Origin: Polaribacter sp. Q13
GTDB taxonomy: Bacteria > Bacteroidota > Bacteroidia > Flavobacteriales > Flavobacteriaceae
Length of the DNA stretch: 64,000 nucleotides
Assembly (NCBI RefSeq): GCF_016858305.2
Contig: NZ_CP074436.1
Coordinates: forward strand, 2,500,001 to 2,564,000
Direction: 5' to 3'
Below are positions 3,833-62,559 of the stretch, piece after piece (position 1 is the stretch's first letter; each line of letters opens with the position of its first letter). The notes under the pieces are model-generated. The model worked only from the letters and a program-made list of their open reading frames with translations. It was not told the DNA's origin and did no database searches. Made by a program: the position numbers and the translations under genes.

Positions 3833-6685
3833 ATGTCAGATCAGAAAAGAGTTTTTTTAGTGGATGCTTTTGCATTAATTTTTAGAGGATATTATGCATT
3901 TATAAAAAACCCTAGAATTAATAGTAAAGGTTTAGATACGTCTGCAATAATGGGTTTTATGAACTCGCTTTTAGATGTTATTAAACGTGAAAGACCAGAT
4001 CATTTAGCGGTTTGTTTTGATAAAGGCGGTAGTATAGACAGAGTAGAAATGTTTGAAGCTTATAAAGCCAACCGAGACGAAACTCCGGAAGCTATTAAGT
4101 TAGCGGTACCTTACATACAAGAAATCTTAAAAGCCATGCACATTCCTATTATGGTAAAAGAAGGTTTTGAGGCAGATGATGTTATTGGAACCCTTTCTAA
4201 ACAAGCAGAAAAAGAAGGTTACAAAACGTATATGGTAACGCCAGATAAGGATTTTGCGCAACTAGTTTCTGAAAATATTTTCATGTACAAACCCCGTTTT
4301 GGTGGTGGTTACGATATTTGGGGAGTGGATGAAGTAAAAGAAAAGTTTGGTGTAGAAAACCCAGAGCAAGTCATTGATTTTTTAGGAATGATGGGAGATT
4401 CTGCGGATAATATTCCAGGTTTACCTGGAGTTGGAGAAAAAACAGCTAAAAAGTTTTTAGCGGCTTATGGTTCTATGGAAAATCTATTAGCAAATACGCA
4501 TGAGCTAAAAGGAAAAATGAAGGAGAAGATAGAAGCAAACGGAGAATTAGGGTTACTTTCTAAACAATTGGCAACAATTATGTTAGATGTTCCGGTAACT
4601 TTTGATGCGAAAGATTTTGAATTAGACCAACCAGACAAAGAAAAAGTAACGGAACTTTTTAACGAGTTAGAATTTAGAAATTTATTAACCAACTTCTTAC
4701 GAACTTTCGCAGTTGAAAATGCAGAAAAAGCAAATTCTGTAGAGGATAACAAAAACACGGACTCAAGTCCGTTGCAAAGCAAAAAAGCTACTCCGGCTCC
4801 TGAAGGTCAGTTTGATTTATTTGCAGCACCGGGAAGCGGAAGCGTTTCTGAAGCAGAAGTTGCATCTGGTTTTAAATCGATAAAAGATACGAATCATTTT
4901 TATCAACATATAGACTCTCCTTTTGCTAGAAAATTATTATTGAAGAAATTAATGGAACAAACTTCGGTTTGTTTTGATACAGAAACCACGGGCTTAAAAG
5001 CCTTGGAAGTTGAATTAATAGGTATTGCTTTTTCTTACGAAGTTGGTAAAGGATATTATGTCTCTTTCCCAGAAGATCAAGAGGAAACCAAAGCAATTTT
5101 AGAAGAATTTAGACCCTTTTTCACATCCGATGAAATCGAAAAAATTGGGCATAATTTAAAGTATGATATTAAAGTTTTATCAAATTATGAAATGCCTGTA
5201 AAAGGGAAGTTGTTTGATACCATGATTGCGCATTATTTGATCAATCCAGATATGCGTCATAATATGGATATGTTGGCAGAAACGTATTTAAACTATCAAC
5301 CAGTTTCTATTGTAGATTTGATTGGCAAGAAAGGAAAGAATCAGCTTTCTATGCGTGTTGTTCCTTTAGCAGATCAAACAGAATACGCGGTAGAAGATGC
5401 AGATATTACGTTTCAATTAAAACAACTTTTTACGAGTGAGTTAGAAAGTGGAAATGTAACCAACCTATTTAATGATATAGAAACTCCTTTAGTTTCGGTT
5501 TTAACCGCCATGGAAATTGAAGGAATTAATATTAATATCGATTTCTTAAAGGAATTATCTGTTGCTTTAACCGAGGACATTAACAGACTTGAAAAAAATA
5601 TTTACGAGCAAGCAGGAGAGGAATTTAATATCGCTTCGCCAAAACAATTAGGAATTGTGTTGTTCGAAAAAATGGAGTTGGTTAAAAAACCTAAAAAGAC
5701 TAAAACGGGTCAGTATAAAACCGGAGAAGATATTTTATCTTTCTTAGCAAAAGACCATAAAATTATTAGAGATATTCAAGAATATCGTCAGTATAAAAAA
5801 TTACAAAGCACGTATGTAGACGCCTTACCAAATGAAGTGAATCCGAAAACAGGTAGAATTCATACAGAATACATGCAAGCTGTTGCTGCTACGGGAAGAT
5901 TGAGTTCTAACAACCCGAATTTACAAAACATTCCTATTAGAACCGAAAGAGGTAAAGAAGTTAGAAAATCGTTTATTCCAAGAGATGAAAACCATGTGTT
6001 ATTAGCTGCAGATTATAGTCAAATTGAATTAAGAATTATTGCTGCTTTAAGTGAAGAAGAAAACATGATAGAAGCTTTTAAAAACGGCGAAGATATTCAT
6101 GCTTCTACGGCTGCAAAAGTGTTTAATGTTCCTTTAGATGAAGTAACTCGCGAACAACGTAGCAATGCAAAAACAGTAAACTTCGGAATTGTATATGGAG
6201 TTTCAGCATTTGGATTGAGCAATCAAACCGATTTATCTAGAAGTGAAGCAAAAGAACTAATTGATACCTATTATGAAACGTACCCAAAGTTAAAAGCCTA
6301 CATGGCTGCACAAGTAGATTTTGCAAGAGAACACGGGTATGTAGAAACGGTTTTAAACAGACGTAGGTATTTAAAAGATATCAATTCTAGAAATGCAATG
6401 GTTAGATCTGGCGCAGAAAGAAATGCCGTAAATGCACCAATACAAGGTTCTGCAGCAGACATTATAAAACTTGCCATGATTAATATTCATAACCGTTTTG
6501 AAAAAGAAGGTTTTAAATCTAAAATGTTATTGCAAGTACATGATGAATTGGTTTTTGACGCACATAAAGACGAGTTAGAAATTATTAGACCTATTATAAA
6601 AGACGAAATGGAAAATGCTTTTAAAATGAGCGTTCCTTTAGATGTTGAAGTTGGAATTGGTGAAAACTGGTTACAAGCACATTAA
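3833..6685 (+). CDS. polA: DNA polymerase I
   Basis: The protein is 950 residues. An N-terminal 5' nuclease domain (about 1-290; FEADDVIGT, GDSADNIPGLPGVGEKTA) is followed by a linker, an intact 3'-5' proofreading exonuclease (D382 and E384 in FDTETTG; NLKYD; YAVEDAD), and the family A polymerase domain (D727 in DYSQIELR, the RSNAKTVNFGIVYG finger motif, D904 in VHDELVFD). All catalytic acids are present, so the exonuclease is predicted active, unlike in several bacterial Pol I enzymes. The ATG at 3833 gives the standard MSDQKRVFLVDA start; 34 further codons are open upstream but unlike the family. It replaces RNA primers and fills repair gaps. Confidence 0.97.
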   Translation: MSDQKRVFLVDAFALIFRGYYAFIKNPRINSKGLDTSAIMGFMNSLLDVIKRERPDHLAVCFDKGGSIDRVEMFEAYKANRDETPEAIKLAVPYIQEILKAMHIPIMVKEGFEADDVIGTLSKQAEKEGYKTYMVTPDKDFAQLVSENIFMYKPRFGGGYDIWGVDEVKEKFGVENPEQVIDFLGMMGDSADNIPGLPGVGEKTAKKFLAAYGSMENLLANTHELKGKMKEKIEANGELGLLSKQLATIMLDVPVTFDAKDFELDQPDKEKVTELFNELEFRNLLTNFLRTFAVENAEKANSVEDNKNTDSSPLQSKKATPAPEGQFDLFAAPGSGSVSEAEVASGFKSIKDTNHFYQHIDSPFARKLLLKKLMEQTSVCFDTETTGLKALEVELIGIAFSYEVGKGYYVSFPEDQEETKAILEEFRPFFTSDEIEKIGHNLKYDIKVLSNYEMPVKGKLFDTMIAHYLINPDMRHNMDMLAETYLNYQPVSIVDLIGKKGKNQLSMRVVPLADQTEYAVEDADITFQLKQLFTSELESGNVTNLFNDIETPLVSVLTAMEIEGININIDFLKELSVALTEDINRLEKNIYEQAGEEFNIASPKQLGIVLFEKMELVKKPKKTKTGQYKTGEDILSFLAKDHKIIRDIQEYRQYKKLQSTYVDALPNEVNPKTGRIHTEYMQAVAATGRLSSNNPNLQNIPIRTERGKEVRKSFIPRDENHVLLAADYSQIELRIIAALSEEENMIEAFKNGEDIHASTAAKVFNVPLDEVTREQRSNAKTVNFGIVYGVSAFGLSNQTDLSRSEAKELIDTYYETYPKLKAYMAAQVDFAREHGYVETVLNRRRYLKDINSRNAMVRSGAERNAVNAPIQGSAADIIKLAMINIHNRFEKEGFKSKMLLQVHDELVFDAHKDELEIIRPIIKDEMENAFKMSVPLDVEVGIGENWLQAH

Positions 6686-52606: not shown

Positions 52607-55186
52607 ATGAACAATTTACCTAAGCTAGATAGATTTAATGAAAACGTACTGTCTAAATATCAGATTTACAACAGTATTTTCACAACGCTACCTTTTGACA
52701 CCATAGACGATACGGGGGTTTTATTACCTCTTTTACATAAAGTATGTAGTAAAGGTTTTAAGTTAGGAAAAAACCCTACAGAAATTGTAGAGCACTTTTT
52801 TAGTAAATACCAAGAAGAACCTACAGAAAAAGAAAAATCGGATTTACTGTTCCGTTTTATTCAATTTATAGAACGACAAGTCGTTTTATTTGATGCCGTA
52901 GAAGACGCTGCCTACCCTATTGTAAATAATATGGATGGTTTTGGAACACTAAGAAACTCTAAAGAACTTGCGTTATTAAGTAACAAAAAAGACGAATTAA
53001 AAGCACATTTAGAAGACTTTAAAGTCCGTATTGTATTAACAGCGCATCCAACACAGTTTTATCCTGGATCTGTTTTAGGTATTATTACAGATTTAGACAA
53101 AGCAATACAAAATGACGACTTATTACTAATTAGAAAATTATTAGCACAATTAGGAAAAACGCCTTTCTATAAAAAAGAAAAGCCATCTCCTTTTGATGAA
53201 GCTGTAAGTTTAATTTGGTATTTAGAGCACGTATTTTATCATTCTGTACCAAAAATTTACAATTACGTTCAGCAACATATTTATGATGGTGAACCCATAG
53301 AAAATGAAATTATAGAGCTTGGTTTCTGGCCAGGTGGAGATAGAGATGGTAACCCATTTGTAACTACTAAAATTACGTTAGATGTTGCAGAAAGATTGCG
53401 TCAAACAATTTTAAGAAACTATTATAGAGACATTAGACGTTTAAAAAGACGTTATACTTTTGATGGGGTTCAAGAAATTTTTGCCAGACTAGAAAAAAGA
53501 CTGTACAAGCATGTTGTAAGAAGCTATACCAAAGTTAACTTTTCTCAAAAAATATTATTAGAAGAATTATATACTGCAAGAGAAATTATTGTTAACGAAC
53601 ATCAATCTTTATTTGTAGAAGAATTAAATGATGTTATCAATAAAGTTAGAATCTTTGGTTTTCACTTTGCAACTTTAGATATTAGACAAGATAGTAGAGT
53701 ACATCACCATGCGTTTACGCAAATGGTAGAAGACTTACTTAAATCTGGTGACACTACATTCCCAGAAAACTATTTAAGACTTTCTGATGCAGAACAAGTA
53801 GAAGTTTTATCTGTTGTAAAAGGAAGTATTAACCCAAGTATTTTAACCGATGAAACTTCTGTTAAAACCATAGAATCTATTTATGCGCTAAAAGAAATTC
53901 AGCAAAGAAATGGTGAGCGTGGAGCAAACCGTTACATTATTAGTAACAACCAAAGTGCTTTACACGTAATGCAAACTTTTGCAATGCTAAACTTATGTGG
54001 TTTCGAAAACGAATTACCAGTAGATGTTATTCCGCTTTTTGAAACTGTAGATGATTTAGAGAATTCAGAAGACGTAATGAGAACCTTATATTCTAATAAA
54101 GTATATAGACATCATGTTGCCAAAAGAAAAAACAAACAAACTATTATGTTAGGTTTTTCTGATGGAACAAAAGATGGTGGTTACTTAATGGCAAACTGGG
54201 GAATCTTTAAAGCAAAAGAAGCTTTAACAAGAATCTCTAGAGAATTTGATATTGAAGTAATTTTCTTTGACGGACGTGGTGGACCACCAGCACGTGGAGG
54301 AGGAAAAACACACCAATTTTATGCTTCTTTAGGCCCAACAATAGAGGATAAAGAGATACAATTAACTATACAAGGACAAACGATTAGTTCTAACTTTGGT
54401 ACAGAAAACTCATCTCAATACAACTTAGAGCAATTATTAAGTTCTGGTATTAAAAATGATGTATTTACCAAAGATCAGTTAAACGATAAACATAGAGAAC
54501 TAATAAATGATATGGCTGCAACAAGTTACCAAACTTATGTAGACTTTAAAAATCATGATAAATTCTTACCGTATTTAGAAAAAATGAGTACGTTAAAATA
54601 CTACGCAAAAACCAATATTGGAAGTAGACCAAGTAAACGTGGTGGATCTGACAAATTAGACTTTTCTGCATTAAGAGCCATTCCTTTTGTAGGTAGCTGG
54701 AGTCAGTTAAAACAAAACGTACCAGGTTTCTTTGGTGTGGGTACTGCACTTAAAAAATATGAAGATGCTGGTAGATTTGAAGAAGTTAAAGAATTTTACC
54801 ATGCTTCAGACTTCTTTAGAACTCTATTAGAAAATAGTATGATGAGTTTAACCAAATCTTTCTTTGGCTTAACTTCGTACATGGCAGATGATGAGGAATT
54901 TGGTGAATTTTGGAAAGTAATTTTTACAGAATACGAAACTACTAAAAGACTACTTTTAAAACTTACAGGAGAATCTGAATTAATGGAAAATTTCCCGGTA
55001 GGAAAAGCATCTATAGAAGTAAGAGAACAAATTGTATTGCCTTTATTAACAATACAGCAATTTGCTTTAAAGAAAATTCAAGAACTTCAAAAAACTGATG
55101 GTAGCGCAGCAGAAATTGAAGTGTATGAAAAAATGGTAATGCGTTCATTATTTGGTAATATTAATGCAAGTAGAAACTCTGCTTAA
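52607..55186 (+). CDS. ppc: Phosphoenolpyruvate carboxylase
   Basis: The protein is 859 residues and cytoplasmic; it adds bicarbonate to PEP to refill oxaloacetate. Active-site blocks are complete: TAHPTQFYPGS (catalytic His), GFWPGGDRDGNPFV, FDGRGGPPARGGGKTHQF, LGFSDGTKDGGYLMANW and GSRPSKRGG. Length is typical. Its own terminator lies at 55214-55246. Marine Flavobacteriia often use this enzyme for anaplerotic carbon fixation. Confidence 0.96.
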   Translation: MNNLPKLDRFNENVLSKYQIYNSIFTTLPFDTIDDTGVLLPLLHKVCSKGFKLGKNPTEIVEHFFSKYQEEPTEKEKSDLLFRFIQFIERQVVLFDAVEDAAYPIVNNMDGFGTLRNSKELALLSNKKDELKAHLEDFKVRIVLTAHPTQFYPGSVLGIITDLDKAIQNDDLLLIRKLLAQLGKTPFYKKEKPSPFDEAVSLIWYLEHVFYHSVPKIYNYVQQHIYDGEPIENEIIELGFWPGGDRDGNPFVTTKITLDVAERLRQTILRNYYRDIRRLKRRYTFDGVQEIFARLEKRLYKHVVRSYTKVNFSQKILLEELYTAREIIVNEHQSLFVEELNDVINKVRIFGFHFATLDIRQDSRVHHHAFTQMVEDLLKSGDTTFPENYLRLSDAEQVEVLSVVKGSINPSILTDETSVKTIESIYALKEIQQRNGERGANRYIISNNQSALHVMQTFAMLNLCGFENELPVDVIPLFETVDDLENSEDVMRTLYSNKVYRHHVAKRKNKQTIMLGFSDGTKDGGYLMANWGIFKAKEALTRISREFDIEVIFFDGRGGPPARGGGKTHQFYASLGPTIEDKEIQLTIQGQTISSNFGTENSSQYNLEQLLSSGIKNDVFTKDQLNDKHRELINDMAATSYQTYVDFKNHDKFLPYLEKMSTLKYYAKTNIGSRPSKRGGSDKLDFSALRAIPFVGSWSQLKQNVPGFFGVGTALKKYEDAGRFEEVKEFYHASDFFRTLLENSMMSLTKSFFGLTSYMADDEEFGEFWKVIFTEYETTKRLLLKLTGESELMENFPVGKASIEVREQIVLPLLTIQQFALKKIQELQKTDGSAAEIEVYEKMVMRSLFGNINASRNSA

Positions 55187-55213
55187 AATAGTATCAAAAA
55201 TTAATTTATATTT

Positions 55214-55246
55214 AAAATGCACTCAACTTATGAGTGCATTTTTTTT
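55214..55246 (+). terminator. Terminator of ppc
   Basis: AATGCACTCA (55216-55225) pairs with TGAGTGCATT (55231-55240), loop ACTTA, then a T run. Confidence 0.9.
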
Positions 55247-55262
55247 GTGTTATTAATTTAGT

Positions 55263-55295
55263 ATTTCAAAAAATAAAACAAATTTTATATATTTG
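55263..55295 (+). promoter_or_regulatory. Promoter of the first toxin-antitoxin-like pair
   Basis: TTTC (55263-55266), 21 bases, then TATATTTG (55288-55295), an exact -7 match. The leader to the ATG at 55317 is about 15 bases. Confidence 0.55.
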
Positions 55296-55316
55296 TAAAG
55301 CAAATACTTTATAAAT

Positions 55317-55643
55317 ATGAACACTTTAGAGGTAATCTACAATTATGATACTGTAATAAATAAATTAATAGAAGATATTAAAAAGAGTGATTTTAAAACA
55401 GCCTACTTTTTAAAACTGTTAAATTTAAAAGACAGTTTTTTCTATAAAAAAATGCGTGAAAAACGTTTTACAAATGAAGAAGTTAAACTCATTTCTAAAC
55501 ACTTATATCCAGAAGAATACCAAGCTTATAAAGATGTTTTAATTGGTGAATTGTTAGAAAAATCGAAAGCTCAATTAAAAGCAGGTTTAGGTGTAGATTT
55601 TGAAACTGTTTTAACCAATTCTAAGCATAAATATGGTGTATAA
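55317..55643 (+). CDS. Probable antitoxin with helix-turn-helix, pair 1
   Basis: The protein is 108 residues. A helix-turn-helix-like region (about 27-62; KTAYFLKLLNLKDSFFYKKM then FTNEEVKLISKHL) resembles XRE-type folds. The C-terminal half is helical and could wrap a toxin. Its end overlaps the next start by 11 bases, the usual layout for antitoxin-toxin operons. The family is not one I can name, so the call rests on gene order, size and the partner. Confidence 0.6.
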   Translation: MNTLEVIYNYDTVINKLIEDIKKSDFKTAYFLKLLNLKDSFFYKKMREKRFTNEEVKLISKHLYPEEYQAYKDVLIGELLEKSKAQLKAGLGVDFETVLTNSKHKYGV

Positions 55644-55935
55644 TATTGTTGCATCACCTTTAGCGAATAGTACTTATTTACAAAATATAGAGTTTTTAGA
55701 AACCTATTGGTCAGAAAAAGAAGTTGTTAGTTTTATTACTAAAGTTTCAGATATAGTTACCATTTTAAAAGCGAGTCCTCAAACCTTTAAAAAATGGGAA
55801 AAGAACATCAATATTCATCAAATAGAAATTGTAAAACAGATTACATTATACTATCAAATAACAGATAATAGTGTTGAGTTTTTGCTATTTTTTAATAACC
55901 TACAAGACCCAAACGAATTAACCGAGTTCTTGTAA
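55633..55935 (+). CDS. Probable RelE/ParE-superfamily toxin, pair 1
   Basis: The protein is 100 residues. The sequence runs YNIVASPLANSTYLQNIEFL, a helical middle, IEIVKQITLYYQI and VEFLLFFNNLQDP, which matches the ParE/RelE order of strand, two helices and three strands ending in F..LQDP. Overlap with the upstream gene supports co-translation. If it is RelE-like it would cleave mRNA on the ribosome; if ParE-like it would poison gyrase. Sequence alone does not decide. Confidence 0.6.
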   Translation: MVYNIVASPLANSTYLQNIEFLETYWSEKEVVSFITKVSDIVTILKASPQTFKKWEKNINIHQIEIVKQITLYYQITDNSVEFLLFFNNLQDPNELTEFL

Positions 55936-56010
55936 AATTCTTTTTTTTTAAAGATTCTTTTTTTTAATGCTGAAATAAAATCGTATTTTTATAAAGTAAA
56001 ATTTCGTACC

Positions 56011-56394
56011 ATGAAAAAATACACTTTCTTACTTTTAACTTTATTTGTTGGTAGTTTTTGTTTTTCACAACAACAAACTACCAACAATAATTTTATTCCT
56101 GTTAGTATTTACACCTCTTCTTTTCAGCTTACAGCTGATGACACTCCTTCTTATTCTTCCATTAACAAGGAGTTAAATTTTAAAAAAAAGTATAAATTTT
56201 CTACAGTTTCTTTTGAAGAAATTGACGATAATCAATTTGTAATTTCCACTGAAAATCTTTCTACAAAAGCAACTAAATTTATCTATGACGATTATAAAAG
56301 TTATAGAGATGAAAACTTGTTAAAAGGATTTTTACAAAAACACGACCCAACCCGATGGGATCCTATCAACTTTAAACCACAGAAGCTTAATTAA
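56011..56394 (+). CDS. Small exported protein of unknown function
   Basis: The protein is 127 residues with a signal peptide (about 1-20, cleavage before QQQTT). The mature part is polar with no recognised domain. Its stop codon ends exactly one base before the left copy of the 95-bp comM repeat, so before the insertion it lay 30 bases upstream of comM and may have shared a transcript with it. Confidence 0.7.
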   Translation: MKKYTFLLLTLFVGSFCFSQQQTTNNNFIPVSIYTSSFQLTADDTPSYSSINKELNFKKKYKFSTVSFEEIDDNQFVISTENLSTKATKFIYDDYKSYRDENLLKGFLQKHDPTRWDPINFKPQKLN

Positions 56395-56489
56395 TTTTCT
56401 TTATCTTTAGAAAAAAGAAAAAGAATGCTTGTTAAAGTTTATGGCTCTGCCGTTTTTGGTATTGAGGCCACCACAATTACCGTAGAAGT
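56395..56489 (+). repeat. 95-bp direct repeat, left copy (comM 5' end)
   Basis: Identical over 95 bases to 57538-57632. It spans TTATCTTTAG (a near -7 box), the ATG and the first 22 codons of comM. The match stops abruptly on both sides. It looks like one attachment site of an inserted element. Confidence 0.95.
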
Positions 56490-56502
56490 TATACTTATTT
56501 GA
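56425..56502 (+). pseudogene. Truncated comM 5' fragment
   Basis: The ATG and 22 codons identical to comM are followed by three foreign codons and a TGA at 56500-56502. It is the severed start of the gene left behind by the insertion. A 25-residue peptide could still be made. Confidence 0.9.
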
Positions 56503-56557
56503 TAAATTGGATTAAGTTTTAACATTTATCCAAGATTAATAAAATTAAATGATTTTA

Positions 56558-56941
56558 TTAAAATAATAAATAAACAAAATAGCAAAAAACACATAAAGTA
56601 GAAATAATTGCACACAAAGAAAACAGTACTGATCTATTTTCTTTAGTTTCTGAAAACGTTATAAATTCATCAAAACCAAGCTCATCAATTGAAGCTTCTT
56701 TTCTACTCTTTTGCATCAACAAATATTCTAAAAAAATAAGGAAAATTAGATTCAATAATGGAATCATAATTAATTTTAAATTCACCCAGTCGTAAACACT
56801 AGAAAGGGCAAAATACCCACCAATTAAGATGTTATTAAAAGTGAAAAGTTTATCATTTATTCTATTAAAATGATTCAGAATATTTTTAGATGCCTCTTCT
56901 TTTATTATATTAACTTTATTTTCAAATTCTTTTACATTCAT
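56558..56941 (-). CDS. Small membrane protein in the comM insertion
   Basis: The protein is 127 residues. An N-terminal amphipathic part (about 1-30) is followed by two adjacent hydrophobic segments (about 37-50 and 57-75), a charged stretch (EASIDELGFDEF) and a third segment (about 103-127) at the very C-terminus. No family recognised. It is the downstream gene of the two in the insert and reads against comM. Membrane effector or immunity functions are possible but unsupported. Confidence 0.6.
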   Translation of the reverse strand: MNVKEFENKVNIIKEEASKNILNHFNRINDKLFTFNNILIGGYFALSSVYDWVNLKLIMIPLLNLIFLIFLEYLLMQKSRKEASIDELGFDEFITFSETKENRSVLFSLCAIISTLCVFCYFVYLLF

Positions 56942-57017
56942 TTTTGAATTGTTTATTAAATTCAGTTTGAGGTAAAATTAAAATGTTATTAAAACTACTT
57001 TTAACCTAAAAATTCCA

Positions 57018-57392
57018 TTAATTAATTTTTAAATCTATAAGAGAAATATTACCATTTTCTTTCTCCTTTAATTTTACAACATAATTACTTCTAATTATAG
57101 CTCCAAAACTATTTTGAGAATCAACATAAGATGAGATTGTATATATATTATTTAACTTTTCAACATTTGCTTTATTAAGAGAAGGAAACTTAGCAGTACT
57201 TGGTGACTTTAGTTGCTTCTCAACAAACTGTTGTGCTGCATAGGTAGCCTGCTCATTACTAAAATAGTTGTTTTTTTCCTTTTTTTGAGATGAATTAGTT
57301 GTAGAATATTTATTTTCTATATAATTATTATAAAGTAATACTCCAGCAACGAGTATTCCAATTATTCCAAATAATATTAAAGCCTTTTTCAT
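57018..57392 (-). CDS. Small membrane-anchored protein with AQQFVEKQLKSPSTAKFP motif
   Basis: The protein is 124 residues from the ATG at 57392; a TTG five codons earlier is unlikely. One membrane helix (about 3-21) is followed by a linker and a compact domain with ATYAAQQFVEKQLKSPSTAKF and the downstream ISSYVDSQNSFGAIIRSNY segment. This domain is seen in small proteins of phages and mobile elements in several phyla; its role is unknown. TATATTTG on the minus strand at 57452-57459 is its likely -7 box. Confidence 0.65.
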   Translation of the reverse strand: MKKALILFGIIGILVAGVLLYNNYIENKYSTTNSSQKKEKNNYFSNEQATYAAQQFVEKQLKSPSTAKFPSLNKANVEKLNNIYTISSYVDSQNSFGAIIRSNYVVKLKEKENGNISLIDLKIN

Positions 57393-57537
57393 TTTATAGT
57401 TTTTCAATTTTTAGATTCCGCTAAGATTAAACTTAACAATCTACAAGCAATCAAATATAATGATTTTAGCACATATAGATATCAGGCTAACTCAAGAAAA
57501 AAGATTCAATTTTTGGTAAAATAAGAGAATTTATTTT

Positions 57538-57632
57538 TTTTCTTTATCTTTAGAAAAAAGAAAAAGAATGCTTGTTAAAGTTTATGGCTCTGCCGTTTTT
57601 GGTATTGAGGCCACCACAATTACCGTAGAAGT
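57538..57632 (+). repeat. 95-bp direct repeat, right copy (comM 5' end)
   Basis: Exact copy of 56395-56489 at a distance of 1143 bases. It supplies the promoter-like TTATCTTTAG and the first 22 codons of the complete comM. Confidence 0.95.
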
Positions 57633-59103
57633 AAATATTGATAAAGGAATTGGCTATCATTTGGTAGGTTTGCCCGATAATGCTGTTCGTGAAAGTTCGT
57701 ATCGAATTTCTGCTGCACTAAATAACAATAATTACAAACTTCCCGGAAAGAAAATTATTATTAACATGGCTCCTGCCGATATTCGGAAAGAAGGTGCTTC
57801 TTATGATTTAACTTTAGCAGTTGGAATTTTAGCAGCATCAGCGCAAATAAAATCAGATCATATTGATGAATACATTATTATGGGCGAACTTTCTTTAGAC
57901 GGAAGTTTACAGCCCATAAGAGGTGCCTTACCAATTGCCATAAAAGCAAGAGAAGAAGGTTACAAATATTTAATTCTTCCGAAGGAAAATGCCAAAGAAG
58001 CTGCCATTGTAGATGATTTAGAAGTGTTGGGGGTAGAAAATATCTTAGAAGTAATCAATCATTTTAATGATGATAAAAAAATTGAACCCACTATTGTTGA
58101 TACAAGAGCTGAGTTTTATAAAAATATAGATTTCCCTGAATTTGATTTTTCTGATGTAAAAGGACAAGAATCTATTAAACGTTGTATGGAAATTGCCGCT
58201 GCAGGCGGACATAATATTATTTTAATTGGACCTCCAGGATCTGGAAAAACTATGTTAGCAAAAAGATTGCCGTCCATTTTACCACCAATGACTTTACATG
58301 AAGCGCTGGAGACTACAAAAATTCATTCTGTGGTTGGCAAAATAAAAAAAGAAGGTTTGCTATACCAACGTCCTTTTAGAAGCCCACATCATACGATTTC
58401 TAATGTCGCCTTGGTCGGCGGCGGTCAATACCCAAGACCTGGAGAAATTTCTTTGTCTCACAACGGCGTTTTATTTTTAGATGAATTACCAGAATTTAAG
58501 AGAGATGTTTTAGAAGTAATGCGTCAACCTTTAGAAGACAGAGAAGTTACTATTTCTCGTGCAAAATTTACAGTTACCTACCCAAGTAGTTTTATGTTGG
58601 TGGCAAGTATGAACCCGAGTCCGAGTGGTTTTTTTAATGACCCAAATAGCCCGATGACTTCCTCTCCACAAGAAATGCAACGTTATTTAAGTAAAATTTC
58701 CGGACCATTATTAGATAGAATAGACATTCATATAGAAGTTACTCCTGTTCCGTTTGCAAAACTATCAGAAGAACGAAAAGGAGAATCATCCGTAGAAATT
58801 AGAAAACGAGTAACCGCATCTAGAGAGTTACAATCTGAGCGTTTTAAAGATTTTGAAAACGTACATTATAATGCACAAATGAGTGTAAAACAGATTCGTG
58901 AATTTTGTAAGTTATCACCAGAAAGTTTAACGTTATTAAAAACGGCTATGGAAAAACTAAACCTTTCTGCTCGTGCTTATGACAGGATTTTAAAAGTTTC
59001 TAGAACAATTGCCGATTTAGCTGCCACTAAAGATATTTCTCCAGATCATATTGCTGAAGCCATACAATATAGAAGTTTAGATAGAGATGGTTGGTTGGGG
59101 TAA
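57568..59103 (+). CDS. comM: Mg-chelatase-like AAA+ ATPase ComM (YifB)
   Basis: The protein is 511 residues: an N-terminal Lon-protease-like fold (about 1-165; VGLPDNAVRESSYRI, ADIRKEGASYDL), AAA+ core (Walker A GPPGSGKTMLAKRLP, Walker B LFLDELPEF, SMNPSP sensor) and a Mg-chelatase C-terminal domain. ComM is a hexameric helicase that promotes branch migration during natural transformation. It is intact despite the insertion because the right repeat supplies its first codons. comM is a known integration hot spot in other phyla (Acinetobacter resistance islands). Confidence 0.95.
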   Translation: MLVKVYGSAVFGIEATTITVEVNIDKGIGYHLVGLPDNAVRESSYRISAALNNNNYKLPGKKIIINMAPADIRKEGASYDLTLAVGILAASAQIKSDHIDEYIIMGELSLDGSLQPIRGALPIAIKAREEGYKYLILPKENAKEAAIVDDLEVLGVENILEVINHFNDDKKIEPTIVDTRAEFYKNIDFPEFDFSDVKGQESIKRCMEIAAAGGHNIILIGPPGSGKTMLAKRLPSILPPMTLHEALETTKIHSVVGKIKKEGLLYQRPFRSPHHTISNVALVGGGQYPRPGEISLSHNGVLFLDELPEFKRDVLEVMRQPLEDREVTISRAKFTVTYPSSFMLVASMNPSPSGFFNDPNSPMTSSPQEMQRYLSKISGPLLDRIDIHIEVTPVPFAKLSEERKGESSVEIRKRVTASRELQSERFKDFENVHYNAQMSVKQIREFCKLSPESLTLLKTAMEKLNLSARAYDRILKVSRTIADLAATKDISPDHIAEAIQYRSLDRDGWLG

Positions 59104-61665: not shown

Positions 61666-61724
61666 GGTGATTATTTTAAGTTGTAAAGGTATGAAAGAAT
61701 GAGAAAAAAGGATTAGGACTTTAT

Positions 61725-61769
61725 ATGAGATTCCTCAATCGCCAAAAAAGGCTCATTTCGGAATAACAG
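61725..61769. repeat. REP-like unit
   Basis: ATGAGATTCCTCAATCGCC, an A-rich loop, GGCTCATTTCGGAATAACA. Nearly the same as 62516-62559 and the reverse complement of 1787-1831. The two nearby copies bracket the second toxin-antitoxin-like pair. Confidence 0.7.
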
Positions 61770-61836
61770 GATAATTGAGAATTCAGATATAAAGACGTAT
61801 AAAGTAATTTTAAAAAACAGGTATTTACCTTATAGA

Positions 61837-61865
61837 TTGAAATAAATCTATTTTTACTATATTTG
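61837..61865 (+). promoter_or_regulatory. Promoter giving a leaderless mRNA for pair 2
   Basis: TTG (61837-61839), 18 bases, then TATATTTG (61858-61865), an exact -7 match ending 6 bases before the ATG at 61872. The in-frame TTG at 61863 lies inside the box and is therefore not the start. Confidence 0.6.
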
Positions 61866-61871
61866 TTAAGT

Positions 61872-62123
61872 ATGAATATCCAATCAGAAAAAAATCAATT
61901 AATTCAGCAAATCATAGAACTACAAGACGGTTCTGTAATTAAAAAAGTGCGTGAATTTCTATTGAAAGAAACTAAAAATGATGATTGGTACCATTCACTT
62001 TCTTCTTCCGAAAAAGAATCTATTGCTAAAGGATTAAATGATTTAGAAAACGGAAATATTGTTTCTCATGAAGATGTTATGATTTCTGTTAAAAACAAAA
62101 TTATTGCCCTTAAACAACAATAG
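61872..62123 (+). CDS. Probable antitoxin, pair 2
   Basis: The protein is 83 residues, helical and acidic. NQLIQQIIELQDGSVIKKVREFL then SLSSSEKESIAKGLNDLENGNIVSHEDVM resembles small Bacteroidota antitoxins paired with ParE-like toxins. The stop TAG overlaps the GTG start of the next gene by one base (TAGTG). It starts at the ATG at 61872, set by the promoter position. Confidence 0.75.
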   Translation: MNIQSEKNQLIQQIIELQDGSVIKKVREFLLKETKNDDWYHSLSSSEKESIAKGLNDLENGNIVSHEDVMISVKNKIIALKQQ

Positions 62124-62404
62124 TGGAAATTATTTGGTCTGTTGCTTCCGAAAAATCTTACTTAACGAAAATTGAACAACTTTTTGATAAATGGGGAATT
62201 GAATTTGTCGAGAAATTTGAATTTCAAGTAAATCAATTGTTAGCTAAAATTACAAAACATAATTATTTTTGTCCAAAATCTGAGTATTTAGATTTACATA
62301 AATGTGTTATAAATAAATATATTTCTTTGATTTATAGAATTAATAATCATCAAAAAATTGAAATTGTTTTACTAATTTTTAATAAAAGTGAACACATTTT
62401 TTAA
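62123..62404 (+). CDS. ParE/RelE-superfamily toxin, pair 2
   Basis: The protein is 93 residues, with a GTG start overlapping the antitoxin stop. The sequence begins IIWSVASEKSYLTKIEQLFDKWG and continues VEKFEFQVNQLLAKI, then CVINKYISLIYRI and IEIVLLIFNKSE, the standard ParE order. The target (gyrase or ribosome-bound mRNA) is not decidable. The pair is flanked by REP-like units. Confidence 0.8.
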   Translation: MEIIWSVASEKSYLTKIEQLFDKWGIEFVEKFEFQVNQLLAKITKHNYFCPKSEYLDLHKCVINKYISLIYRINNHQKIEIVLLIFNKSEHIF

Positions 62405-62407
62405 ATG

Positions 62408-62495
62408 CTAAAATCCGCGTTAAGGATTGAGCGGTCTGTTTGAGCTCTTTTTTATTTTTCATAAAAAAAGCGAGTAGTGAAAGCCTGTTAAAACG
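62408..62495 (-). repeat. 3'-associated intergenic repeat, copy 4
   Basis: On the minus strand it matches copy 3 over CTTTCACTACTCGCTTTTTTT, then AAAAAAGAGCTCAAACA and CTCAATC, but both ends have diverged. It lies downstream of ahcY in ahcY sense, separated from it by the terminator and two REP-like units. Confidence 0.65.
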
Positions 62496-62515
62496 CCCAA
62501 AAGAGTATAGTTATT

Positions 62516-62559
62516 ATGAGATTCCTCAATCGTCTAAAAAGGCTCATTTCGGAATGACA
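62516..62559. repeat. REP-like unit
   Basis: ATGAGATTCCTCAATCGTC, A-rich loop, GGCTCATTTCGGAATGACA. Pairs with the copy at 61725-61769 in the same orientation. Confidence 0.7.

Follow-up and report, generated by a model that had tools for sequence, protein, structure and literature searches.

In the Flavobacteriaceae genome analysed here, the start of comM has probably received a recent insertion with a long target duplication, which gives the arrangement T-X-T, with the target T on both sides of the insert X. It seems to be an instance of a known but rarely studied route of gene acquisition, and not a new mobile element. The locus lies in the right part of the window (the whole stretch of 64,000 nucleotides that was analysed), in a genome that is a single contig of 4.42 Mb and whose closest named comM genes are those of Polaribacter. 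Loci of relatives are designated below by L numbers and genomes by G numbers. The features of the locus are the following:

52607..55186, forward strand: ppc, presumably phosphoenolpyruvate carboxylase from its sequence, the left neighbour of comM in many relatives (tblastn against the relatives' loci)
55317..55935, forward strand: a pair of short ORFs of 108 and 100 aa, by eye similar to a toxin-antitoxin pair
56011..56394, forward strand: orf127, encoding a small protein whose start resembles a signal peptide by eye; it belongs to the native left flank and ends directly at the left repeat
56395..56489, forward strand: duplicated target T, left copy, with sequence upstream of comM and codons 1-22 (the last base of codon 22 lies outside), severed
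56490..57537, no strand: inserted DNA X, 1048 bp
56558..56941, reverse strand: cargo A, 127 aa, membrane-protein-like by eye
57018..57392, reverse strand: cargo B, 124 aa, hydrophobic N-terminus by eye
57538..57632, forward strand: right copy of the duplicated target T, which runs into the intact comM
57568..59103, forward strand: comM (YifB/Mg-chelatase-like AAA ATPase), intact, 511 aa

Structure of the comM locus

The original prediction described an identical 95-base repeat whose copies lie 1143 bases apart, and the comparison of both copies confirmed it: 56395-56489 and 57538-57632 agree in 95 of 95 bases, with 1143 bases from start to start. From the right ATG (57568) a ComM/YifB-type protein is encoded, in which Pfam recognises the Mg_chelatase, ChlI and Mg_chelatase_C domains, and from the left ATG (56425) comM codons 1-22 are read, followed by three foreign codons and a stop. 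Reading frames and Pfam thus agree with the description of a severed left copy that ends in foreign codons and of a right copy that continues into a complete comM. The left copy begins immediately 3' of the orf127 stop, and both orf127 and comM are whole because the 95 bp of T are present on both sides of the insert. The claim that the repeat leaves comM whole was therefore correct, and the intact gene argues against a knockout of comM. The comM promoter plausibly lies within the repeat.

In a 464-kb sample of the own genome, the repeat is unique for its length among the perfect direct repeats listed with a spacing of 150-20,000 bases, the next one listed being 50 bases long. No second clear T-X-T case was found in this sample, from which the pair at 435597/438801 was left out of the follow-up. 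When the own genome was searched with the comM start, the only strong matches were the two copies, together with one further weak match.

Regarding the insert itself, its GC content is 23.0% versus 30.8% for the window. The longest terminal inverted match among the matches listed is 7 bp, and elsewhere in the own genome the insert gave a 23-bp match only. Scans with Pfam, NCBIfam, PHROG and PADLOC showed no recombinase, integrase, defence or restriction-modification match for cargo A or cargo B, which bears out the earlier description of two small reverse-strand genes without a recombinase. Cargo B matches phrog_13160 (unknown function, E 4.1e-22) and has homologues in Tenacibaculum gallaicum (74%) and Polaribacter litorisediminis (62%), and the homologues of cargo A are scattered across Bacteroidetes, for example in a Maribacter (75%). 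Cargo A also seemed similar by eye to the cargo of a locus of Olleya marilimosa described below (L064), but BLAST gave no relation between them.

Concerning the rest of the window, the two small ORFs between ppc and orf127 gave nothing above the curated cut-off in the family scans, where their matches were weak at most. The locus L113 lacks these ORFs (window 55187-56010), and what appear to be the last bases of the second one remain there; this loss resembles a deletion between short repeats. Another pair of small ORFs is found at 61724-62555, the second of them ParE-like by eye and without a Pfam match. It is flanked by a 41-bp near-identical repeat (61724/62515), which was taken for a dispersed intergenic repeat.

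Empty sites and the allele of the target

The search for empty comM loci in relatives, proposed with the original prediction, was successful. An automatic check found the single-copy arrangement without the insert in 12 relatives' loci; among these, L003 and L128 seem to belong to a single genome. In L113, L122-L125 and L128, orf127 leads directly into comM, and the closest empty-site locus is L113, with 97% over T. Together with the 95/95 identity of the copies, these relatives support the claim of an insertion whose flanking copies are still identical. Among 166 genus genomes, the own genome aside and with the best two candidates per genome, no match to the insert went beyond 81% over 404 bp. 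This match corresponds to the part of cargo B and was found in G027; some match at E up to 0.001 was present in 80 of the 166 genomes, in most cases a short one.

The bases of T give information about the source of the duplicated sequence. Over its 95 bp, the differences from the window are 3 in L113, 4 each in L114 and L122, 5 in L123 and 8 in L124, and at three positions both window copies agree while all five of these loci carry another base. Since both copies bear one allele, T would have been copied from the resident, and a recent doubling of the resident sequence is the simplest reading. The identical copies could also stem from gene conversion or from a donor bearing this allele, which is the less simple reading. 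It should be noted that, in the same alignment, the distant locus L008 has two of the three window bases and L010 has one, so the window allele need not be private. For this reason the insertion with target duplication was marked down slightly as an explanation, and transformation with a single homologous anchor, discussed below, was marked up slightly.

The ppc-comM gap as a variable cassette position

In 39 of 88 sequences checked, ppc was upstream of comM on the stretch compared, and in 49 it was not. The spacing between both genes in the 39 loci is 36-422 bp in 22 of them, 459-590 bp in the 9 that have orf127 alone, and 1.9-4.9 kb in the remaining 8. These eight occupied loci (>1.8 kb) are the window, L114, L044, L028, L014, L161, L116 and L055, and represent 7 distinct insertions, as L116 and L055 share one; L044 was counted as occupied by gap size, its cargo not being among those read. 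Different cassettes are found between the same conserved genes, and the gap between ppc and comM behaves as a place for variable cassettes.

Five of the eight occupied loci, corresponding to four events, have repeats that join their flanks. Apart from the window, L114 has a T of 18 bp and an X of 1408 bp that encodes a 448-aa thioredoxin-like protein. The bases beside its two copies resemble two different orf127-end alleles, and exchange with other strains may be part of the history of this locus. The event present in L116 and in L055/L115 has a T of about 219 bp, including 62 comM codons, and an X of about 4.6 kb encoding a Porph_ging-domain protein and a 790-aa protein without a Pfam match; over 221 aligned bases, its copies are 95% alike in L116 and 91% alike in L055/L115. 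The left copy is more diverged in G104 than in G053, which indicates that the copies can be replaced later. In L161, from P. glomeratus (also L019), T comprises 408 bp, namely the 3' end of ppc together with the spacer before comM, and its copies are 91% alike. Here X has 4253 bp; it encodes two thioredoxin-like proteins and a toxin of the ParE family, next to which lies a small protein without a Pfam match. An empty-site relative was found for each of these three events. The thioredoxin-like cargos of L114 and L161 are related (42% identical) and lie in opposite orientation. No repeat joining the ppc-comM flanks was found among the rows listed, at most six each, for L014, L028 and L044, nor among those for L118 (G015), a locus outside the 8/39 count with a 558-aa cargo in a 1.9-kb gap.

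According to their coordinates, the four ppc-comM repeats all overlap in 9 bases, from -30 to -22 of comM. This overlap could come from a recombinase core, from a promoter-linked break or from the need to keep the comM promoter. The original prediction had also suggested looking for other cargos between the same repeats. Other cargos do occur at the same place. The repeats around them differ from that of the window in length (18, about 219 and 408 bp) and in their end points, and drift is seen in the older copies (91-97%).

The same structure at other sites and controls

The T-X-T structure is not limited to the ppc-comM gap. In L064, from Olleya marilimosa, T has 124 bp and is the 3' end of a gene resembling an alpha/beta hydrolase, X has 872 bp with one reverse-strand gene, and the site is empty in L073 and L079. 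A second site in L028 shows a T of 322 bp that starts inside the comM 3' end and an X of 1345 bp with two reverse-strand genes, and in L042 a T of 145 bp flanks an X of 907 bp with one such gene; for the 322-bp repeat of L028 and for L042, no empty site was found among the relatives' loci compared. By coordinates, T spans a gene end in six of the seven events (window, L114, L115/L116, L161, L064 and L028; not L042). The GC content of the insert is lower than that of its locus in 9/9 rows. The insert ends show no common motif by eye, and no terminal inverted match >12 bp was found among the rows listed.

The control for the regions upstream and downstream of comM covered 66 loci and gave 5 upstream and 4 downstream pairs outside a single ORF, after four same-ORF downstream pairs had been dropped. 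Three of these nine pairs have an empty-site relative, namely L019 (as L161), L055 (as L115) and L064. None was found for L009, L018, L028, L033, L038 and L042, and L009, L018, L033 and L038 were left out as cases. In the automatic empty-site check of 47 pairs, six rows had an empty-site relative; the 34-bp pair of L054 was not counted as a case, being taken for a dispersed intergenic repeat.

Regarding a possible hot spot, a search with the comM start detected a second strong copy nearby in 3 of 147 matching genomes (G000, G053 and G104, two events), and many other genomes gave a second, weak match. The count excludes G064, a MAG contig on which the two comM starts are oppositely oriented. 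With the ppc start, none of 95 genomes had a second copy nearby among the matches listed, with one on another contig in G095 and a distant weak one in G099. Two further queries were uninformative as hot-spot controls: lpd matched most genomes at 2-3 places, presumably paralogues, and the matches listed for ahcY covered the stronger ones only. The comparison between the comM start and the ppc start is too weak to claim a hot spot.

Possible origin of the insertion

Under the favoured explanation, a 1048-bp foreign fragment with two small genes, perhaps acquired by transformation, would have entered at the start of comM, and the 95 resident bases lying between the two ends of the break would have been copied to either side of it. 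A staggered break, with nicks on opposite strands a distance T apart, or an equivalent template switch is favoured, while the joining step is one that we infer. Both ends would then be filled in, giving the duplicated T. Selection would retain the cases in which T lies across a gene end, since in these the genes are left whole. No Ku was found, in a search in which one of 14 control genomes (Bacillus subtilis) was positive, so classical end joining is unlikely. The ComEC and DprA families of competence proteins are present. Points that weigh against the favoured explanation are the 9-base overlap of the four ppc-comM repeats, the window bases of T that recur in L008 and L010, the loci L014, L028, L044 and L118 in which no flanking repeat was found among the rows listed, the two orf127-end alleles at L114, the more diverged left copy of G104, the negative Ku search and the lack of a second clear case in the 464-kb sample.

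It is quite improbable that the window insert is a non-autonomous element mobilised in trans by an integrase specific for the sequence upstream of comM, with the repeats as attL and attR. The perfect 95-bp repeat and the 9 bases common to the four ppc-comM repeats are features that such a model would also predict, and comM is also split mid-gene by recombinase-bearing elements. Nevertheless, repeat lengths range from 18 to 408 bp with differing ends, the same structure is present at the other sites in L064, L028 and L042, and the insert proteins scanned gave no recombinase match. Moreover, no shared insert ends were seen by eye, no terminal inverted match >12 bp was among the rows listed, and the proposed search for the site elsewhere in the own genome revealed no further strong match to the comM start. 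The conserved attachment site of a mobile element put forward in the original prediction is consequently not supported, given the variable repeats, the drift of their copies and the recurrence of the structure elsewhere.

Homology-facilitated illegitimate recombination, that is, transformation with one homologous anchor, is unlikely as well. In this case, a donor carrying the insert followed by comM would have recombined within comM on the right, with an illegitimate left join inside the resident comM start. The presence of the competence families, the two orf127-end alleles at L114, the related thioredoxin-like cargos at the same locus in L114 and L161, and a window allele that is not strictly private would fit this process. 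However, the identical window copies would require a donor with the resident's allele, no donor with the insert already before comM was found among the 166 genomes, and the related cargos of L114 and L161 lie in opposite orientations. A simple tandem duplication of the comM start, with its middle replaced later, would account for direct repeats in tandem order, but it is highly improbable since nothing at the empty site corresponds to the 1048 bp between them, and elsewhere in the genome no more than 23 bp match, even though the adjoining copies are identical.

The insertion with target duplication could also be part of something broader. It is conceivable, although doubtful at present, that recombinase-free insertion of this kind is a common means by which Flavobacteriaceae acquire genes throughout the genome in connection with DNA uptake, and that break or replication intermediates recurring at the comM promoter make the ppc-comM gap a hot spot. 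In the excerpts of the literature available, natural transformation is described for Riemerella, a genus assigned at the time to the Flavobacteriaceae, and Flavobacterium johnsoniae is described as not competent under the conditions used for Riemerella.

Relation to known systems

Insertion with long target duplication was described in Helicobacter pylori by Nobusato et al. 2000, as cited in PMC1643837, PMC4978471 and PMC3154945, whose passages on the subject present these duplications as frequently associated with restriction-modification genes. A like pattern appears in a passage on transposed plant genes (PMC2869330). As far as these passages describe them, the H. pylori cases share with the present ones the location of foreign genes between long direct target duplications, seen by strain comparison. 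They differ in the cargo, which in the Flavobacteriaceae studied here comprises small orphans, thioredoxin-like proteins and a ParE toxin, with no restriction-modification match for the two genes of the window. No report linking target duplication with Polaribacter was found in the literature search.

The minimal mobile elements of Neisseria are cassettes exchanged by homologous recombination in their flanks, and a long target duplication is not known to be part of their definition. The loci described here are similar in having varied cassettes between conserved genes, no recombinase and competence families, and differ in the long target duplication. The AbaR-type islands of Acinetobacter interrupt comM by transposition. 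In both situations comM is the landing place, but in the window comM is intact and the scans gave no transposase match.

Small accessory genes, such as orphans and toxin-antitoxin pairs, occur in bacterial genomes without a recombinase, and little is known about their route of entry. With several empty-site cases from a lineage that has competence families, the joining mechanism would become testable. Furthermore, a perfect flanking repeat alone is no evidence of an attachment site.

Disruption of comM in other genomes

In four genomes, comM is split near residues 234-296: L162 (G042), L163 (G097), L164/L165 (G011) and L169/L170 (G002). The inserts responsible are of about 7 to 54 kb and carry at their edges serine-recombinase-family proteins with Resolvase and/or Recombinase domains. 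The short ones (G042 and G097) also carry a small tyrosine-integrase-family protein, and neither of these two, which were tested for it, has a long flanking repeat; the two long ones were read at the edges only. These elements affect the same gene in the same genus-level group as the window insert but, unlike it, they split comM mid-gene and carry recombinases. Nothing relevant on comM with a serine recombinase was found in the literature search.

Two other loci show a different kind of alteration. In L171 (G071, rated 100% complete), ppc and the first 17 comM codons are kept (5265-5315) and no comM match was obtained by protein search. In L168 (G036), comM is apparently broken by a frameshift or stop near residues 258-262.
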